Source of the DNA: Stenotrophomonas nitritireducens
GTDB lineage: Bacteria > Pseudomonadota > Gammaproteobacteria > Xanthomonadales > Xanthomonadaceae
NCBI RefSeq assembly: GCF_001700965.1
Contig: NZ_CP016756.1
Coordinates: forward strand, 806,001 to 870,000
Direction: 5' to 3'
Length of the DNA stretch: 64,000 nucleotides
Shown here: piece by piece, positions 2,332 to 62,650 of the stretch
How positions within the stretch are numbered: the first letter of the stretch is position 1
Layout of the letters: each line of letters starts with the position of its first letter
Notes under the pieces: model-generated
What the model saw: only the letters and a program-made list of their open reading frames with translations
Database searches by the model: none
Told to the model about the DNA's origin: nothing
Made by a program: the position numbers and the translations under genes

Positions 2332-2577
2332 CTTTCCCCTCTCCCGCCTGCGGGAGAGGGGTAGGAGTGAGGGCAAGCTGTTGCTGCTGCTCAAGCCGTT
2401 GCCGTTGCCGCCATTGCGACCATTCCAGAGCTGAGCACCACGAAAGCCACCGCAAGGTGGCTTTTGTTTTGTGCAAGCTCCAGCCTCTCAGCGCACCAAG
2501 CGCACTGGCCAGAGCCAAATCAAAGGCTCTCCCCCATCCGCCCTTCTGGCACCTTCCCCCGCAGGCGGGAGAAGGCA
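2332..2577 (-). repeat. Split copy of the two-hairpin CTCCCGC/GCGGGAG intergenic repeat
   Basis: Read on the minus strand, the 'CTTCTCCCGC...GAAGGGCGGATG' half lies at 2522-2577 and the 'CCCTCAC...CCTCTCCC' half at 2332-2374, separated by about 150 bp. This is the same two-part element as at 56739-56850 and 62514-62650, with an expanded middle. The stretch 2136-2653 holds no other supportable gene. Confidence 0.6.
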
Positions 2578-9864: not shown

Positions 9865-10236
9865 AGACGCTATGTGATTGGCGTGAACACTGCCGCGCCA
9901 ATTTCCCACCTTGTGGGAGCGGCACAAGCCACGACGACAACCGAAGCCGATAGCGCATTGAACCCGCCGAGGTAAATCGCGGTGGTTCAGGCCTATCGGC
10001 TTCGCGGCTCACGCCGCTCCTACAAAGAGCGCAGCGCCGCAAAGATCCTGCATTTGTAGGAGCGGCGTAAGCCGCGAAGCCATCACGACAATCGAAACCG
10101 ATAGCGCATTGAGCTAGCCGAGGTAGTGCCGGTGGTTCAGGCCTACAGGTTCACACACCTGCCCTACCCTCACCCCAACCCCTCTCCCGGCGGGAGAGGG
10201 GCTTCAAGCTTCAAGCTTCAGCCTAGGCTTTGAGCT
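9865..10236. repeat. Intergenic REP cluster, no gene
   Basis: Inverted and direct copies of the GTAGGAGCGGC-type hairpin lie at 9999-10024 (reverse) and 10055-10080 (forward), with a diverged copy near 9914. A CCTCTCCC/GGGAGAGG hairpin lies at about 10163-10204, followed by a short run of TTCAAGC/TTCAGCC repeats. The last hairpin sits just beyond the zur stop codon on the minus strand and could help end that transcript. Confidence 0.7.
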
Positions 10237-12565: not shown

Positions 12566-12644
12566 TGCGAACCACTGGTTCGCGACTCTTAGAGCGCCCT
12601 CGCGGCGACGCGAGGGCCGGGGCGCGGAGCGGGGTTGGGGTGAG

Positions 12645-12725
12645 GGCAGCTCTGCCTCTGCCTCTGGCTTTGGCTTTGGCTTTGGCTTTAGCTTTAGCTT
12701 TGGCCGTTGCAGTCGCCCTCGCTCC
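12645..12725. repeat. Hexamer low-complexity tract (CTCTGC/TTGGCT/TTAGCT)
   Basis: A run of 6-bp units drifts from CTGCCT to TTGGCT to TTAGCT and ends just before the 238-bp repeat element at 12736. Confidence 0.75.
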
Positions 12726-12735
12726 GGCTTTTGAT

Positions 12736-12973
12736 TCACCGGGCCCCCTTCCGCAGCGACGGAGCTGGCAGACAAAACCCCGCATGGGGCGACGCACAGG
12801 GATGTGCGTCGTTTTTCGACGAGACAGGGATGTCTCGTCGAAAAATCCTGCCAGCGCAGTGGACCCGCGCTGCGTAGCGGCGTGGGCGCGGAGGCAGGGT
12901 GTGCTTTCTTTTGGTTACTTCTTCTTTGCACAAGCAAAGAAAAGTGACTCGCTCCCCGCAGGGGAGTGAAAGC
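12736..12973 (+). repeat. 238-bp multi-hairpin repeat element, copy A
   Basis: This segment is nearly identical to 16335-16572. It contains hairpins 12791-12810 (8-bp stem) and 12812-12845 (15-bp stem), both closed by the loop GGGA between ACA and TGT. Further on are CTTTGC/GCAAAG and CTCCCC/GGGGAG hairpins. It begins at TCACCGGGCCCC and ends at GAAAGCT. Translations of it look like small proteins but differ in frame context between copies, so it is read as a non-coding element or structured RNA. Confidence 0.75.
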
Positions 12974-13015
12974 TCTTTCTCTTGCTCTTGCTCTTGCTCT
13001 TGCAACTGCTGTACA
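12974..13015. repeat. Short CTCTTG hexamer tract after element A
   Basis: Repeated CTCTTG units follow element A directly and close the hexamer-element-hexamer arrangement. Confidence 0.65.
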
Positions 13016-13050
13016 TAAGAGACTAGAGCGCCAGCAACAGCTAGAGCCAA

Positions 13051-13102
13051 AGCTCCCCTCATCCGCCCTTCGGGCACCTTCTCCCGCAGGCGGGAGAAGG
13101 GC
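13051..13102 (-). repeat. Half copy of the two-hairpin CTCCCGC/GCGGGAG repeat
   Basis: AGCTCCCCTCATCCGCCC leads into TTCGGGCACC and a CTTCTCCCGC/GCGGGAGAAG palindrome, the same half-element as at 16624-16674. Confidence 0.65.
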
Positions 13103-16093: not shown

Positions 16094-16136
16094 GCGCCGC
16101 CCCTCTCCCCAACCCCTCTCCCGCAAGGGGAGAGGG
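16094..16136 (+). repeat. Half copy of the two-hairpin repeat (CCTCTCCCGCAAGGGGAGAGG)
   Basis: The CCCCAACCCCTCTCCC half-element has its own palindrome. The long gap 15763-16817 contains only repeats, with no supportable gene. Confidence 0.6.
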
Positions 16137-16234
16137 GCTAAAGCTGCAATTGCGCTCATCCCGCCGGTGGATGCTGCGGCCAGCGCACTGAAAACTGATC
16201 CCGCAGGATATGTGCCGGGGTTGCGGCACCGGCG

Positions 16235-16330
16235 ATGCTTGTTGTTGCGATTGCTGCTGCTTTTGCTACTCCTGCTCTTGCTTCTCCTTCTCCTTCTTCT
16301 TCTGTTGCTGTTGCTGTTGCTTTCAGCTTT
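16235..16330. repeat. Pyrimidine-rich hexamer tract before element B
   Basis: Degenerate units such as TTGCTG, CTTCTC and TTGCTT run directly into repeat element B, as they do before copy A. Confidence 0.7.
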
Positions 16331-16334
16331 TGCC

Positions 16335-16572
16335 TCACCGGGCCCCTTCCGCAGCGACGGAGCTGGCAGACAAGACCCCGCATGGGGCGACGCACAGGGA
16401 TGTGCGTCGTTTTTCGACGAGACAGGGATGTCTCGTCGAAAAATCCTGCCAGCGGAGTGGACCTGCGTCGCGTAGCGGCGTGGGCGCGGAGGCAGGGTGT
16501 GTTTTCTTTTGGTTATCTTTTCTTTGCACAAGCAAAGAAAAGTGACTCGCTCCCCGCAGGGGAGTAAAAGCT
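16335..16572 (+). repeat. 238-bp multi-hairpin repeat element, copy B
   Basis: It has the same length as copy A (12736-12973) and differs by only a modest number of bases. The two GGGA-loop hairpins lie at 16389-16408 and 16410-16443 and are fully conserved. The CTTTGC/GCAAAG and CTCCCC/GGGGAG hairpins are also kept. It is followed by a TTGCTG tract. Confidence 0.75.
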
Positions 16573-16623
16573 GTTGCTGTTGCTACCCTGCCAAAAAACA
16601 AAAAGCCGGAACCAAAGCTAAAA

Positions 16624-16674
16624 GCTCCCCTCATCCGCCCTCCGGGCACCTTCTCCCGCAAGCGGGAGAAGGGA
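16624..16674 (-). repeat. Half copy of the two-hairpin CTCCCGC/GCGGGAG repeat
   Basis: AGCTCCCCTCATCCGCCC is followed by a CTTCTCCCGC/GCGGGAGAAG palindrome, the same layout as after element A at 13051-13102. Confidence 0.65.
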
Positions 16675-16817
16675 GGCTTCATGCAGTTTGATGTGCGTCT
16701 GCTGCCCGCCTTCGCGGGGCAAGCACCACGAACACCCCAATCTGCACGGCGAGAGAAAAGCGCTCCTCGCAAAGAGGACAGAGGCCGCGTGCAATCAGGC
16801 AAGCAACAGTCACCCAG

Positions 16818-22645: not shown

Positions 22646-25600
22646 ATGTCGTCTATCACCTACCCCATTCCGCCGCTGCCCCGTTCGGGCCAGCTCCGCG
22701 CCTGGTGGCGCGCTCCGGCATCCAGCAGCGCGCTGGCCTGGCATGTTGCCTGCGCCGCGCAGGCGCATGCCAAACCGTTGCTGCTGGTAACCCGCGATAA
22801 CCACAGCGCGCATCAGCTGGTGGCGGACCTGCAGACCTTGCTGGGGCCGGACTGCGCCCTGCCGGTGGTGCCGTTCCCGGATTGGGAAACCCTGCCCTAC
22901 GACCAGTTCAGCCCGCACCCGGACATCATTTCGCAGCGTCTTGCCGCCCTGCACCGCCTGCCGACGCTGAAACAAGGCATCGTGGTGGTCCCGGTGCAGA
23001 CCCTGCTGCAGCGGCTGGCGCCACTGAGCTACATCGTCGGCGGCAGCTTCGACCTGAAGGTCGGCCAGCGCCTGGACATGGACGCTGAAAAGCGCCGTCT
23101 GGAAAGCGCCGGCTACCGCAATGTCGCGCAGGTGATGGATCCGGGTGATTTCGCCGTGCGCGGCGGCCTGCTCGACGTCTACCCGATGGGTGCCGATGCG
23201 CCCTTGCGCATCGAGCTGCTGGACGAGGATATCGACTCCATCCGCGAGTTCGACCCCGAATCGCAGCGCTCGCTGGAAAAAGTGACCGCGGTGAAGATGC
23301 TGCCCGGTCGCGAAGTACCGATGGACGAGGCCAGCCTCAACAAGGTGCTGGCCACGCTGCGCGAACGCTTCGATGTGGATACCCGGCGCAGCCCGCTTTA
23401 CCAGGATCTGAAGGCCGGCCTGCTGCCTTCGGGCATCGAATACATGCTGCCGCTGTTCTTCAACCAGACCGCGACCTTGTTCGACTACCTGCCCGACGGT
23501 TTCATGACCGTGCTGGGCAGCGGCGTTGGTGAAGCTTCCGATGCGTTCTGGCTGCAGACCAACAGCCGCTACGAACAACGCCGCCACGATATCGAGCGGC
23601 CGCTGCTGGCGCCGGAAGAGATCTACCAGTCGCCGGACAGCCTGCGCGAGCAGTTCAACCGGCTGCCGCGTGTCGAGGTGTGGGCGGCCGCTCATCCGCG
23701 CATCGCCGAAGCACAGGCCTTGGGTGACCAGGCGTTGCCGCCGCTGCCGGTGGCCGCCAAGGATGCACCGGCCGGACAGGCGTTGAAATCCTTCATCGAA
23801 CACTACCCGGGCCGGGTGCTGATCGCAGCCGATTCACCAGGACGGCGCGAGGCGTTGTTGGAGGTGTTGCAGGCTGCCGAGTTGCGACCTGATGTGGTGG
23901 CCAGCTTCAACGACTTCCTTCCTTCCCCCCTCGGCGGAAAGTGGCCCGAAGGGTCGGATGGGGGTAAGGCTGCTGGCAAAAGCTCGAGCAAGAGCGCCCT
24001 CACCCCAACCCCTCTCCCGAAGGAAGAGGGGCTCAGCCGGTTTGCCATTACCGTCGCGCCGCTGGATGACGGCTTTGCGCTCAGCGAGCCGGCGCTTGCC
24101 GTGCTTACCGAGCGCCAGCTGTTTCCTGAGCGTGCCGGTCAGCCGCGGCGCACGCGACGCGCGGGGCGTGAGCCCGAGGCGATCATCCGTGACCTTGGCG
24201 AGCTGACCGAAGGTGCGCCCATCGTCCATGAAGATCATGGTGTCGGTCGCTACCGTGGTTTGATTGCGATGGACGTGGGCGGCATGCCCGGCGAATTCCT
24301 CGAGATCGAGTACGCCAAGGGCGACCGCCTGTATGTGCCGGTCGCACAGCTGCACCTGATCAGCCGCTACTCCGGCGCTTCGCCGGAAACCGCGCCGCTG
24401 CATTCGCTTGGCGGCGAGCAATGGGCCAAGGCCAAGCGCAAGGCCGCTGAAAAAGTCCGCGACGTGGCCGCCGAACTGCTGGAAATCCAGGCGCGTCGGC
24501 GCGCCCGCGCCGGCCTGGCGCTGGACATCGACCGCTCCATGTATGAGCCATTCGCGGCCGGCTTCCCGTTCGAGGAAACGCCCGACCAGCAGGCCGCGAT
24601 CGAGGCCACCCTACGCGACCTGCAGTCCAGCCAACCGATGGACCGCGTGGTCTGCGGCGACGTGGGCTTCGGCAAGACCGAGGTTGCACTGCGCGCCGCG
24701 TTCGCTGCGGCCAGCGGCGGCAAGCAGGTGGCAGTACTGGTGCCGACCACCTTGTTGGCCGAACAGCACTACCGCAACTTCCGCGACCGCTTCGCCGATT
24801 ACCCGCTGCGGGTGGAAGTGCTGTCGCGCTTCAAGAGCACAAAGGAAATCAAGGCCGAGCTGGACAAGGTCGCCGAAGGCACCATCGATGTGATCATCGG
24901 TACGCATCGCCTGCTGCAGCCGGACGTGAAGTTCAAGGACCTTGGCCTGGTCATCGTCGATGAGGAACAACGCTTCGGTGTGCGCCAGAAGGAAGCGCTC
25001 AAGGCGATGCGCGCCAACGTGCATCTGCTGACGCTGACCGCAACACCGATTCCACGCACCTTGAACATGGCCATGGCCGGGCTGCGCGATCTGTCCATCA
25101 TCGCCACCCCGCCGCCGAACCGTCTTGCGGTCAAGACCTTCATCACCGCCTGGGACAACGCGCAGCTGCGCGAAGCCTTCCAGCGTGAGTTGTCGCGTGG
25201 TGGCCAGCTGTACTTCCTGCACAACGATGTGGAAAGCATGGGCCGGATGCAGCGCGAGCTGTCAGAGCTGGTACCCGAGGCGCGCATCGGCATGGCACAC
25301 GGGCAGATGCCCGAGCGCGAGCTGGAACGGGTGATGCTGGATTTCCAGAAGCAGCGTTTCAACGTGCTGCTGGCTAGTACCATCATCGAGTCGGGTATCG
25401 ACATCCCCAACGCCAACACCATCATCATCAACCGCGCCGACCGCTTCGGTCTTGCCCAGCTGCACCAGCTGCGTGGCCGTGTCGGCCGCTCGCATCACCG
25501 CGCCTACGCCTATCTGCTGGTGCCGGACAAACGCTCGATCACCGCCGATGCACGCAAACGCCTGGAAGCCATCGCCTCGATGGACGAACTGGGTGCCGGC

Positions 25601-26221
25601 TTCACCCTGGCCACCCACGATCTGGAAATCCGCGGTGCCGGCGAACTGCTCGGCGAAGACCAGAGCGGGCAGATGGCCGAGATCGGCTTCAGCCTGTACA
25701 CCGAACTGCTGGAACGCGCGGTGCGCTCCATCAAGTCCGGCAAGCTGCCCGACCTGGATGCCGGTGAAGAAGCCCGCGGTGCCGAAGTCGAACTGCATGT
25801 GCCGGCGTTGATTCCGGAAGACTACCTGCCCGACGTGCACACCCGCCTGACCCTGTACAAACGCATCAGCTCGGCACGCGACAGCGAGCGCCTGCGCGAG
25901 CTGCAGGTGGAAATGATCGATCGCTTCGGCCTGTTGCCGGATCCGGTCAAGCACCTGTTCGCCATCGCCGAGCTCAAGCTGCAGGCCAACGAGCTGGGCA
26001 TCCGCAAGCTGGAGCTGGGCGAGAACGGCGGCCGCATCGTGTTTGACAGCAAGCCCAACATCGATCCGATGGTGGTGATCCAGTTGATCCAGAAGCAGCC
26101 CAAGCTTTACCAGATGGATGGCCCGGACAAACTGCGCATCAAGCATCCCTTGCCGGAAAGTGCCGACCGTTTCAACGCCGCGCGTGCCTTGCTGACCACG
26201 CTGCGTCCCGGAAACGCCTGA
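22646..26221 (+). CDS. mfd: Transcription-repair coupling factor Mfd, with an in-frame repeat-derived insertion
   Basis: A 1191-residue protein (E. coli: 1148). Mfd removes RNA polymerase stalled at DNA damage and recruits UvrA. Visible domains are the UvrB-like N-terminus (residues 1 to about 340), the RNA-polymerase interaction domain (VHEDHGVGRYRGL onwards, about 530), the RecG-like translocase with Walker A GDVGFGKTE (about 670) and DEEQ (about 771), and the C-terminal TRCF domain. Residues 426-464 (23921-24037) contain ALTPTPLPKEEG and PLGGKWPEGSDGGK, which are direct translations of the two-hairpin intergenic repeat. The flanking sequences (SFNDFL and RFAITVAPLDDGF) look like continuous Mfd. 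The frame is kept, so the protein is probably functional. Confidence 0.96.
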   Translation: MSSITYPIPPLPRSGQLRAWWRAPASSSALAWHVACAAQAHAKPLLLVTRDNHSAHQLVADLQTLLGPDCALPVVPFPDWETLPYDQFSPHPDIISQRLAALHRLPTLKQGIVVVPVQTLLQRLAPLSYIVGGSFDLKVGQRLDMDAEKRRLESAGYRNVAQVMDPGDFAVRGGLLDVYPMGADAPLRIELLDEDIDSIREFDPESQRSLEKVTAVKMLPGREVPMDEASLNKVLATLRERFDVDTRRSPLYQDLKAGLLPSGIEYMLPLFFNQTATLFDYLPDGFMTVLGSGVGEASDAFWLQTNSRYEQRRHDIERPLLAPEEIYQSPDSLREQFNRLPRVEVWAAAHPRIAEAQALGDQALPPLPVAAKDAPAGQALKSFIEHYPGRVLIAADSPGRREALLEVLQAAELRPDVVASFNDFLPSPLGGKWPEGSDGGKAAGKSSSKSALTPTPLPKEEGLSRFAITVAPLDDGFALSEPALAVLTERQLFPERAGQPRRTRRAGREPEAIIRDLGELTEGAPIVHEDHGVGRYRGLIAMDVGGMPGEFLEIEYAKGDRLYVPVAQLHLISRYSGASPETAPLHSLGGEQWAKAKRKAAEKVRDVAAELLEIQARRRARAGLALDIDRSMYEPFAAGFPFEETPDQQAAIEATLRDLQSSQPMDRVVCGDVGFGKTEVALRAAFAAASGGKQVAVLVPTTLLAEQHYRNFRDRFADYPLRVEVLSRFKSTKEIKAELDKVAEGTIDVIIGTHRLLQPDVKFKDLGLVIVDEEQRFGVRQKEALKAMRANVHLLTLTATPIPRTLNMAMAGLRDLSIIATPPPNRLAVKTFITAWDNAQLREAFQRELSRGGQLYFLHNDVESMGRMQRELSELVPEARIGMAHGQMPERELERVMLDFQKQRFNVLLASTIIESGIDIPNANTIIINRADRFGLAQLHQLRGRVGRSHHRAYAYLLVPDKRSITADARKRLEAIASMDELGAGFTLATHDLEIRGAGELLGEDQSGQMAEIGFSLYTELLERAVRSIKSGKLPDLDAGEEARGAEVELHVPALIPEDYLPDVHTRLTLYKRISSARDSERLRELQVEMIDRFGLLPDPVKHLFAIAELKLQANELGIRKLELGENGGRIVFDSKPNIDPMVVIQLIQKQPKLYQMDGPDKLRIKHPLPESADRFNAARALLTTLRPGNA
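23921..24037 (+). repeat. Two-hairpin intergenic repeat inserted in frame in mfd
   Basis: The 117 bases carry the same two halves, in the same order, as 56739-56850 and 62514-62650: a CTTCCCCCC...GCCCGAAGGGTCGGATGGGG half and a GCCCTCACCCCAACCCCTCT half ending in GAAGAGGGGCT, joined by an AAAAGCTCGAGCAAG linker. The length is exactly 39 codons and contains no stop in the mfd frame. Confidence 0.85.
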
Positions 26222-56634: not shown

Positions 56635-56935
56635 CCCTGGCTTTGGCTTTGGCTTCGGCTTCGGCTTCGGCCTTGGCTTCGGCTTCGGCTTCGGCTCTGC
56701 TCTGGCCTTTGGGCCGATGCCGAGGAAGCAAAACACCTCCCTTCTCCCGCCTGCGGGAGAAGGTGCCCGAAGGGCGGATGAGGGGGCTGTGGCTTTCAAA
56801 GCAAAAGCTTGCCCTCACCCCAACCCCTCTCCCGCAGGCGGGAGAGGGGCTTCAAGCCCAAACCAAAGCCAAAGCCAAAGCGAAAGCCACAGCTACAACT
56901 ACAGCCAAACCCAAACCCAAACCCAAACCCCAAAA
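56635..56935. repeat. Two-hairpin repeat (56739-56850) flanked by mirrored hexamer tracts
   Basis: On the left, 56635-56705 is a run of GGCTTT/GGCTTC units; on the right, about 56855-56935 is AAAGCC/AAAGCG/AAACCC units, that is, the reverse complement of the left tract. Between them lies a full copy of the two-hairpin element, with a CTTCTCCCGC/GCGGGAGAAG hairpin and a CCTCTCCCGC/GCGGGAGAGG hairpin. The whole could fold into one large cruciform or RNA hairpin. Confidence 0.75.
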
Positions 56936-56939
56936 GCAG

Positions 56940-56963
56940 AAAACCCGGCCTTGGCCGGGTTTT
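56940..56963 (-). terminator. Terminator of obgE
   Basis: AAAACCCGGCC and GGCCGGGTTTT form a stem with a minimal loop, 33 nt after the obgE stop. The T-rich arm serves as the U-tract on the minus strand. Confidence 0.85.
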
Positions 56964-62480: not shown

Positions 62481-62513
62481 GACGCGACGAACTGCACAAA
62501 AAGCCTGAAGACT

Positions 62514-62650
62514 CCTTTCTCCCGCGTGCGGGACTGCAGCCCCCTTCTTGGGGGAAGGTGCCCGAAGGGCGGATGAGGGGAGCTTTTGAAGCTTTAGAGC
62601 TTTAAAGCGCCCTCACCCCAACCCCTCTCCCGCAAGCGGGAGAGGGGCTT
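62514..62650 (+). repeat. Two-hairpin intergenic repeat, full copy
   Basis: Both halves are present: a CTTTCTCCCGC half with GTGCCCGAAGGGCGGATGAG, and a GCCCTCACCCCAACCCCTCT half ending in GCGGGAGAGGGGCTT. An AGCTTTTGAAGCTTTAGAGC linker joins them. The first hairpin is interrupted by a GACTGCAGCCCC insert. Confidence 0.8.

Follow-up and report, generated by a model that had tools for sequence, protein, structure and literature searches.

An in-frame copy of a non-coding palindromic repeat in the D3 loop of Mfd in Stenotrophomonas nitritireducens and recurrent repeat insertion at this loop among its relatives

The repeat-derived segment of mfd and the intergenic repeat

The window analysed here is a stretch of 64,000 nucleotides of the Stenotrophomonas nitritireducens contig NZ_CP016756.1 (positions 806,001 to 870,000). 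The mfd gene, coding for the transcription-repair coupling factor (1191 aa), lies on its forward strand (22646..26221) in the list of open reading frames, and the assignment is supported by the NCBIfam models TIGR00580 and NF007966 (mfd and PRK10689), both over their cut-offs, and by PDB matches to Escherichia coli Mfd. Residues ~425-463 are encoded by a repeat-derived in-frame insert (23920..24033, forward strand), a diverged copy of an intergenic repeat, here termed element A, with an intact right-half core and an eroded left half. The right-half core CCCTCACCCCAACCCCTCTCCC (23997..24018, forward strand; motif scan), read as (A)-L-T-P-T-P-L-P, is identical to that of the intergenic copies at 56812 and 62610, and scanning the window for it at up to three mismatches gave seven matches, with none in 100 shuffles. 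The left half has diverged, a three-mismatch scan with the canonical left half yielding five places which include both intergenic copies and not mfd. When 23914-24033 is aligned with 56737-56851, 96 of 108 aligned bases are identical (score 88), while the highest score among 100 shuffles compared with six reference repeats was 35. A preliminary description of this DNA had proposed that the mfd stretch and the intergenic repeats share both halves, their order and their linker; the identity and the order and orientation of the halves agree, while the linker differs in both sequence and length. Its statement that the segment is read without a stop or frameshift holds.

The net gain in Mfd is 34-35 codons, with 109 aa between fixed flanks in place of 74-75 aa. 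In the PDB matches the insert maps between two aligned blocks, to E. coli Mfd residues ~414-425. With the usual borders of domain D3 in E. coli numbering, this position falls within D3 and ahead of the RNA-polymerase interaction domain, as had been proposed, and not in the linker to that domain. The D1-D3 module is tethered to the RNA-polymerase interaction domain via a 25-residue linker (PMC7864632). In a predicted structure the loop carrying the insert is modelled as disordered, with pLDDT values of 25-31 for residues 431-460 and below 50 for residues 427-461. It is flanked in the model by a helix (421-424) and a strand (466-470), with blocks 401-420 and 471-490 at pLDDT 83-88; this is a single model built with 21 sequences (mean pLDDT 71.7, pTM 0.47), in which parts of the motor core are poor.

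Element A, a palindromic repeat of ~113 bp, is non-coding and present in many copies; it consists of two related hairpins arranged head to head. Scans with the core and the halves, together with folding, identified a full intergenic copy forming one long hairpin (56737..56852, forward strand; z -7.85) and a second with a short extra stretch in its left half (62513..62650, forward strand; z -4.60). The core scan gave a further exact right-half copy (10167..10188, forward strand), and the half scans gave diverged right-half and left-half cores ~160 bp apart (2352..2553, reverse strand). The element A halves are also found in a composite arrangement, 400-500 bp apart around a second shared repeat, as recognised by half scans and alignment. 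At 12593..13101 (reverse strand) the halves are ~400 bp apart, while at 16098..16676 the right-half core is on the forward and the left half on the reverse strand, and the enclosed repeat is the same (12706-13101 aligned to 16304-16673, score 487). Degenerate hexamer-like runs (GGCTTC / AAAGCC) surround the intergenic element A in the window (56640-56730 and 56850-56940).

Across the genome there are 190 right-half copies at up to three mismatches, a count for which the backward control carries no information, the core being almost the same when read in reverse, and 99 exact copies, with none in the backward control. A strand bias suggested among the matches listed was ruled out by the exact totals of 52 and 47. 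Of 369 genomes from the class, 14 contain the exact core, this genome and that of Stenotrophomonas sp. SY1 among them, and an exact pattern for the full element, too strict to inform, occurs in three of 61 genus genomes. Among eight full-length copies recovered by pattern search, a mean of 2.0 out of six frames are stop-free and six lengths are multiples of three, which makes in-frame survival of the element plausible. A single tRNA is the only Rfam match in the window at gathering thresholds. Element A carries neither a GTAG nor a CGTC tag, and none was found within ~1.5 kb of the Y1 transposase genes (PF01797), of which there are two here and two in SY1, so that a RAYT link was rejected. The two Y1 transposase genes of this genome (L062, L064) are flanked by GTAG-type REPs. 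No transposase and no target duplication was found for element A.

Empty sites in relatives and divergence of the insert

The preliminary description had anticipated a clean gap with intact flanks in the Mfd proteins of relatives, and this is what the genus displays. In 34 of the 36 other genus genomes the insert is absent and the flanks are intact, the Mfd matches being split at residues ~426 and ~464 with few bases between them; the match runs through the insert in Stenotrophomonas sp. SY1 (G004), and the site is not covered in G016. At the DNA level, two of 30 genus loci contain the insert and 28 lack it, the gap following TTCCT (TTTCT in one). A search of a protein collection with the loop region returned six proteins, each of which has Mfd domains; five are 1190-1219 aa long and the sixth 932 aa, and the insert is present in all four that were inspected. 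In one Mfd protein (P0003) the insert is 22 residues longer than in its near relative P0002, its length still changing. No target-site duplication was seen between occupied and empty mfd sites, but the copy is old and a few host codons differ there. The empty sites point to the repeat being, or having been, mobile, as had been suggested. No mover was found; the repeats on either side of the two Y1 transposase genes are different ones.

The hairpin has been lost in the mfd copy (z +0.37, versus -7.85 for the intergenic copy at 56737..56852). Between this strain and SY1, the one pair of strains on which the estimate of constraint rests, dN/dS is 1.16 in the insert (37 codons) and 0.09 in the rest of Mfd (1153 codons), and only four of 231 windows of 38 codons, all overlapping the insert, have a pN as high as that in the insert. 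Mfd is still under purifying selection while the insert drifts. Silent divergence between the two strains is 0.22 in the insert (5.5 changes, 29 sites) versus 0.51 in the rest of mfd; a dS of about half, derived from few sites, is unpredicted by one old neutral insertion. As the insert is in frame in a disordered D3 loop, drifts without protein-level constraint and has a decayed hairpin, it is best described as a tolerated insertion, and the exaptation claimed in the preliminary description is unsupported. The term essential, applied there to Mfd, is likewise doubtful, since Mfd is dispensable in E. coli. Repeat-derived Mfd inserts in other lineages have hairpin z values from -11.4 to ~0, read here as young and old inserts.

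Recurrent insertion at the D3 loop and in other genes

Mfd was matched in 147 of 149 genomes in a survey of the family, with many matches split or lengthened at the D3 loop, and in 146 of 151 genomes in a survey of the order with another query. The DNA of the hinge was retrieved for 58 of the family-survey genomes, the remaining ones being judged by listed match length only (rows for G565 are absent), and, together with the other loci collected, gave a set of 155, of which 152 could be parsed, the exceptions being L259, L303 and L331, with L298 parsed only in part; two stretches of G076 were left out of the hinge analysis. The hinge segment is usually 68-70 aa long and reaches 140 aa at the longest, and inserts are found at the same loop in many genera. 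In the DNA, element A occurs there in the forward orientation in, for example, G455, G479 and G469, and reversed in G502, G451, G501 and G488, while CGTC-type REP dimers occupy the loop in G520, G472, G518, G484, G510, G471, G487, Fulvimonas and Frateuria. Thirty-eight hinge segments, comprising 36 inserts or lengthened loops and two insert-free controls, were scored with 100 shuffles each: scores exceed those of all 100 shuffles for 18 segments against element A and for nine against the CGTC type, the matches of L246 and L229 are weak, and seven inserts and both controls are unmatched. As these seven lengthened loops (L247, L282, L284, L285, L294, L296 and L300, the last tying with the shuffles) match neither repeat family, other sources lengthen the loop too. 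Overall, repeat-derived inserts occupy the Mfd loop in no fewer than 24 of the 147 family genomes (17 with element A, seven with the CGTC type). A putative third palindromic family occurs as Mfd inserts (L246, L247) in two genera belonging to a different family of the order. Internal insertions of ≥8 aa were counted in 81 full-length Mfd proteins, with N-terminal extensions (30 rows) excluded; they are located in the D3 loop in seven cases (16-71 aa) and elsewhere in six (8-16 aa).

In most cases the inserted repeat belongs to a family that is common in the genome concerned. Carriers of CGTC-type inserts have 35, 64, 79, 121, 134, 184 and 206 copies of the CGTC repeat in their own genomes, compared with three in this genome, and G562, which belongs to the genus of G510 and is without an insert, has 39. 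Carriers of forward element A have between nine and 144 copies at up to two mismatches, versus none in G518 and one in G520, although the backward control of this count is near the level of the hits in several genomes because the core is nearly alike backwards. Abundance alone is not decisive: G479 carries element A in Mfd with 35 element A versus 292 CGTC-type matches, G501 and G502 carry the reversed element A with zero and one core matches, and G025 and G544 have 94 and 23 element A copies and no Mfd insert.

The number of changes at the loop was estimated on a quick tree (INDEPENDENCE) built from 142 Mfd flanks with the insert excluded (227 columns), in which 58 of the 136 inner branches are weak. 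The sample is enriched for long inserts and insert lineages were sought out, and frequencies are accordingly taken from the family survey only. Ten loci repeating a genome were dropped beforehand, L260 being kept as the row of the window; a few repeats remain and L298 was not counted. Five states were distinguished (none, element A forward, element A reverse, CGTC and the putative third family), and the changes include losses. Parsimony requires 22 changes on the tree as built, 20 when branches below 80 are collapsed to the most favourable resolution and 14 when those below 95 are collapsed; the corresponding values are 20, 18 and 12 without the third family, and 21, 18 and 10 for presence or absence of an insert only. 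Even when weak branches are collapsed, no fewer than 12-14 changes are thus required at the Mfd loop. The starred pairs of sisters of which only one carries an insert are G520/G485 and G469/G513, with G637/G620 for the third family. On the tree, G499 is scored as other, although hinge scoring matches it to element A, and G452 is scored as none despite an apparent remnant. The short hinge loop of G452 (L323) resembles what a deletion would leave of the reversed element A found in its sister G502, and the pair G502/G452 was withdrawn as not being a clean contrast. In one genus (g319), G518 carries the CGTC type, G479 and G569 carry element A and Luteimonas gilva (G544, L158) has no insert, while all five sampled genomes of another (g295) carry related Mfd inserts.

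Other proteins also contain element A, as the preliminary description had expected. A gene census of 71 stretches near 100 of the 190 places, together with the window, covered 123 distinct copies, of which five qualify, by an ad hoc coding-frame rule, as lying within an open frame whose two flanks both look coding. The identities of three, Mfd, MetH and IcmF, were checked against NCBIfam; the other two are putatively a dihydrolipoamide-acetyltransferase-like protein (in the E2 linker) and a MurL-like protein. The MurL-like ORF varies in length among relatives by steps of a few to ~20 codons. The MetH insert is found in this genome and SY1, is shorter in G025 and is absent from six other parsed genomes, G012 being without a match. 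That of IcmF is shared with G030; another insert is present in G024, none occurs in SY1, G025 and G020, and four of ten genomes are without a match. G479, a member of another genus, has element A in the same IcmF loop. IcmF reads element A in another frame (HPHPNPSPAGRG) than Mfd (LTPTPLP). The IcmF (L348, L349, L368) and MetH (L336-L338) loops have also been reused by repeat inserts in different species.

Origin of the inserts and their significance

The reading preferred here, to which a probability of roughly 0.8 is given, is one of neutral tolerance, with the mfd insert a copy of element A lying in a permissive and repeatedly invaded D3 loop. Element A would spread by some route and only seldom lies within a gene. 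A single copy would have entered mfd, most simply in the common ancestor of this strain and SY1, probably by mobilisation of the repeat, at the short D3 loop between helix and strand. Because the insert kept the frame and had no stop, Mfd would have remained functional with a disordered loop longer by a net 34-35 residues, and this loop has since drifted while the hairpin decayed. Among members of the order, the loop would serve as a permissive landing site, one that has been entered many times by element A in either orientation and by REP dimers of the CGTC type, and selection presumably does no more than purge insertions at other places, without favouring this loop.

That a G+C-rich linker resembles the repeat by chance, for which its low-complexity make-up might speak, is refuted by the shuffle controls (no matches in 100 shuffles; score 88 versus 35) and the empty sites in relatives, and its probability is negligible. 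A single ancient insertion in the loop, inherited, diversified and lost in most lineages, would account for inserts lying within a few codons of the same place, and some inserts do appear inherited, given the related inserts in all g295 genomes and the apparent remnant in G452. It is nevertheless very improbable as a general explanation, since the inserts belong to unrelated families, occur in both orientations and match repeats elsewhere in such genomes, genus g319 is mixed, and some inserts form strong hairpins. Recurrence with tight clustering of entry points could alternatively reflect a mover that recognises the sequence or structure of the site, the hotspot then being one of insertion preference and not of tolerance. 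This appears unlikely, as unrelated repeat families are found at one site, the reused loops of IcmF and MetH differ in sequence, and inspection of the empty sites, which was not systematic, brought no common target motif or duplication to notice.

Recruitment of the inserts for a function is about as doubtful as targeted entry. A longer D3 loop might alter the movement of D3 and so UvrA recruitment or Mfd activity, with the repeats kept for that effect, a variant of the mutator proposal made by Di Nocera and colleagues. D3, a domain of unknown function, moves ~47 Å, which is held critical for unmasking the UvrA site (PMC7385628), insertion recurs at a single loop of Mfd, and intragenic REPs in repair genes were noted earlier (PMC3733652). 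Against this stand the dN/dS of 1.16 in the insert, the variation of the inserts in sequence, length and family, and the nature of the other checked carriers in this genome, MetH and IcmF, which are metabolic enzymes and not repair proteins. It is similarly a speculative and rather unlikely suggestion that the D3 loop is a favoured docking site, where a long disordered loop retunes transcription-coupled repair or the supply of mutations and repeat-rich Lysobacterales convergently lengthen it with their own repeats.

Palindromic repeats in frame within proteins are already known, from the Rickettsia palindromic elements (RPE) and from the genes described as REP-decorated by Di Nocera et al. (2013), in which GTAG and CGTC REPs lie in frame, often in repair genes (PMC3733652). 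Different REPs occupy about the same site in recB of X. campestris and X. oryzae, and loops or linkers were proposed as neutral REP sites (PMC3733652). The genes named include those for UvrABC/UvrD, RecBCD, PolA and DnaE2, with Mfd not among them in the parts consulted (PMC3733652). The Mfd inserts likewise are short, multi-copy palindromic repeats in frame inside a gene; element A has many copies mostly outside genes, and its Mfd copy lies in a conserved ORF with the frame kept and orthologues empty with intact flanks. REPs of the CGTC type were recognised by a CGTC tag, a stem of 8-9 bp beginning with AT, a loop of 4-5 bases, a CCA tail and a mostly head-to-head dimeric arrangement, and the second family of Mfd inserts (L283, L281, L286) fits CGTC-1, with the tag, an 8-bp stem starting with AT, a 4-base loop, the CCA tail and a head-to-head dimer (PMC3733652). 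As RPE-6 and RPE-4 are CGTC-1 and CGTC-4 repeats, this family belongs to the same superfamily as the RPEs, and the Neisseria dRS3 is also CGTC-1 (PMC3733652). The parallel with Rickettsia drawn in the preliminary description is thus apt, in-frame palindromic repeats occurring inside unrelated proteins in both cases, element A being likened to the RPEs by description. Element A differs from the GTAG and CGTC REPs in having neither tag and in being longer. The RAYT-linked REPs of Stenotrophomonas are also palindromic, from the same genus and present in up to hundreds of copies, but they start with GT(A/G)G and lie on either side of a Y1 transposase gene (PMC2817692); neither Y1 gene here is flanked by element A. 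With MITEs it shares a non-coding, mobile-looking character and inverted symmetry; no target duplication was seen at the mfd copy, which is old, and the search for a parent transposon covered Y1 transposases.

No text on the element A core DNA or LTPTPLP was found in the open literature (main texts), nor any paper on REPs in Mfd, the one paper returned for the two subjects together dealing, by its listing, with cyanobacterial termination. Repeated entry of unrelated families into one loop across many genera is not described in the parts of Di Nocera et al. consulted (PMC3733652), and this recurrence and the untagged element A as invader look new. Whether repeats in repair genes are neutral loop passengers or change the protein was left open by those authors (PMC3733652). 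One Mfd loop filled many times by unrelated repeats, with occupied and empty sister species and hairpins ranging from strong to decayed, forms a natural replicate series which makes this question testable, and for one strain pair the evolutionary rates point to neutrality. Insertion-tolerant loops are marked in Mfd, MetH and IcmF, and the sequences suggest a route by which non-coding repeats may become disordered protein segments.
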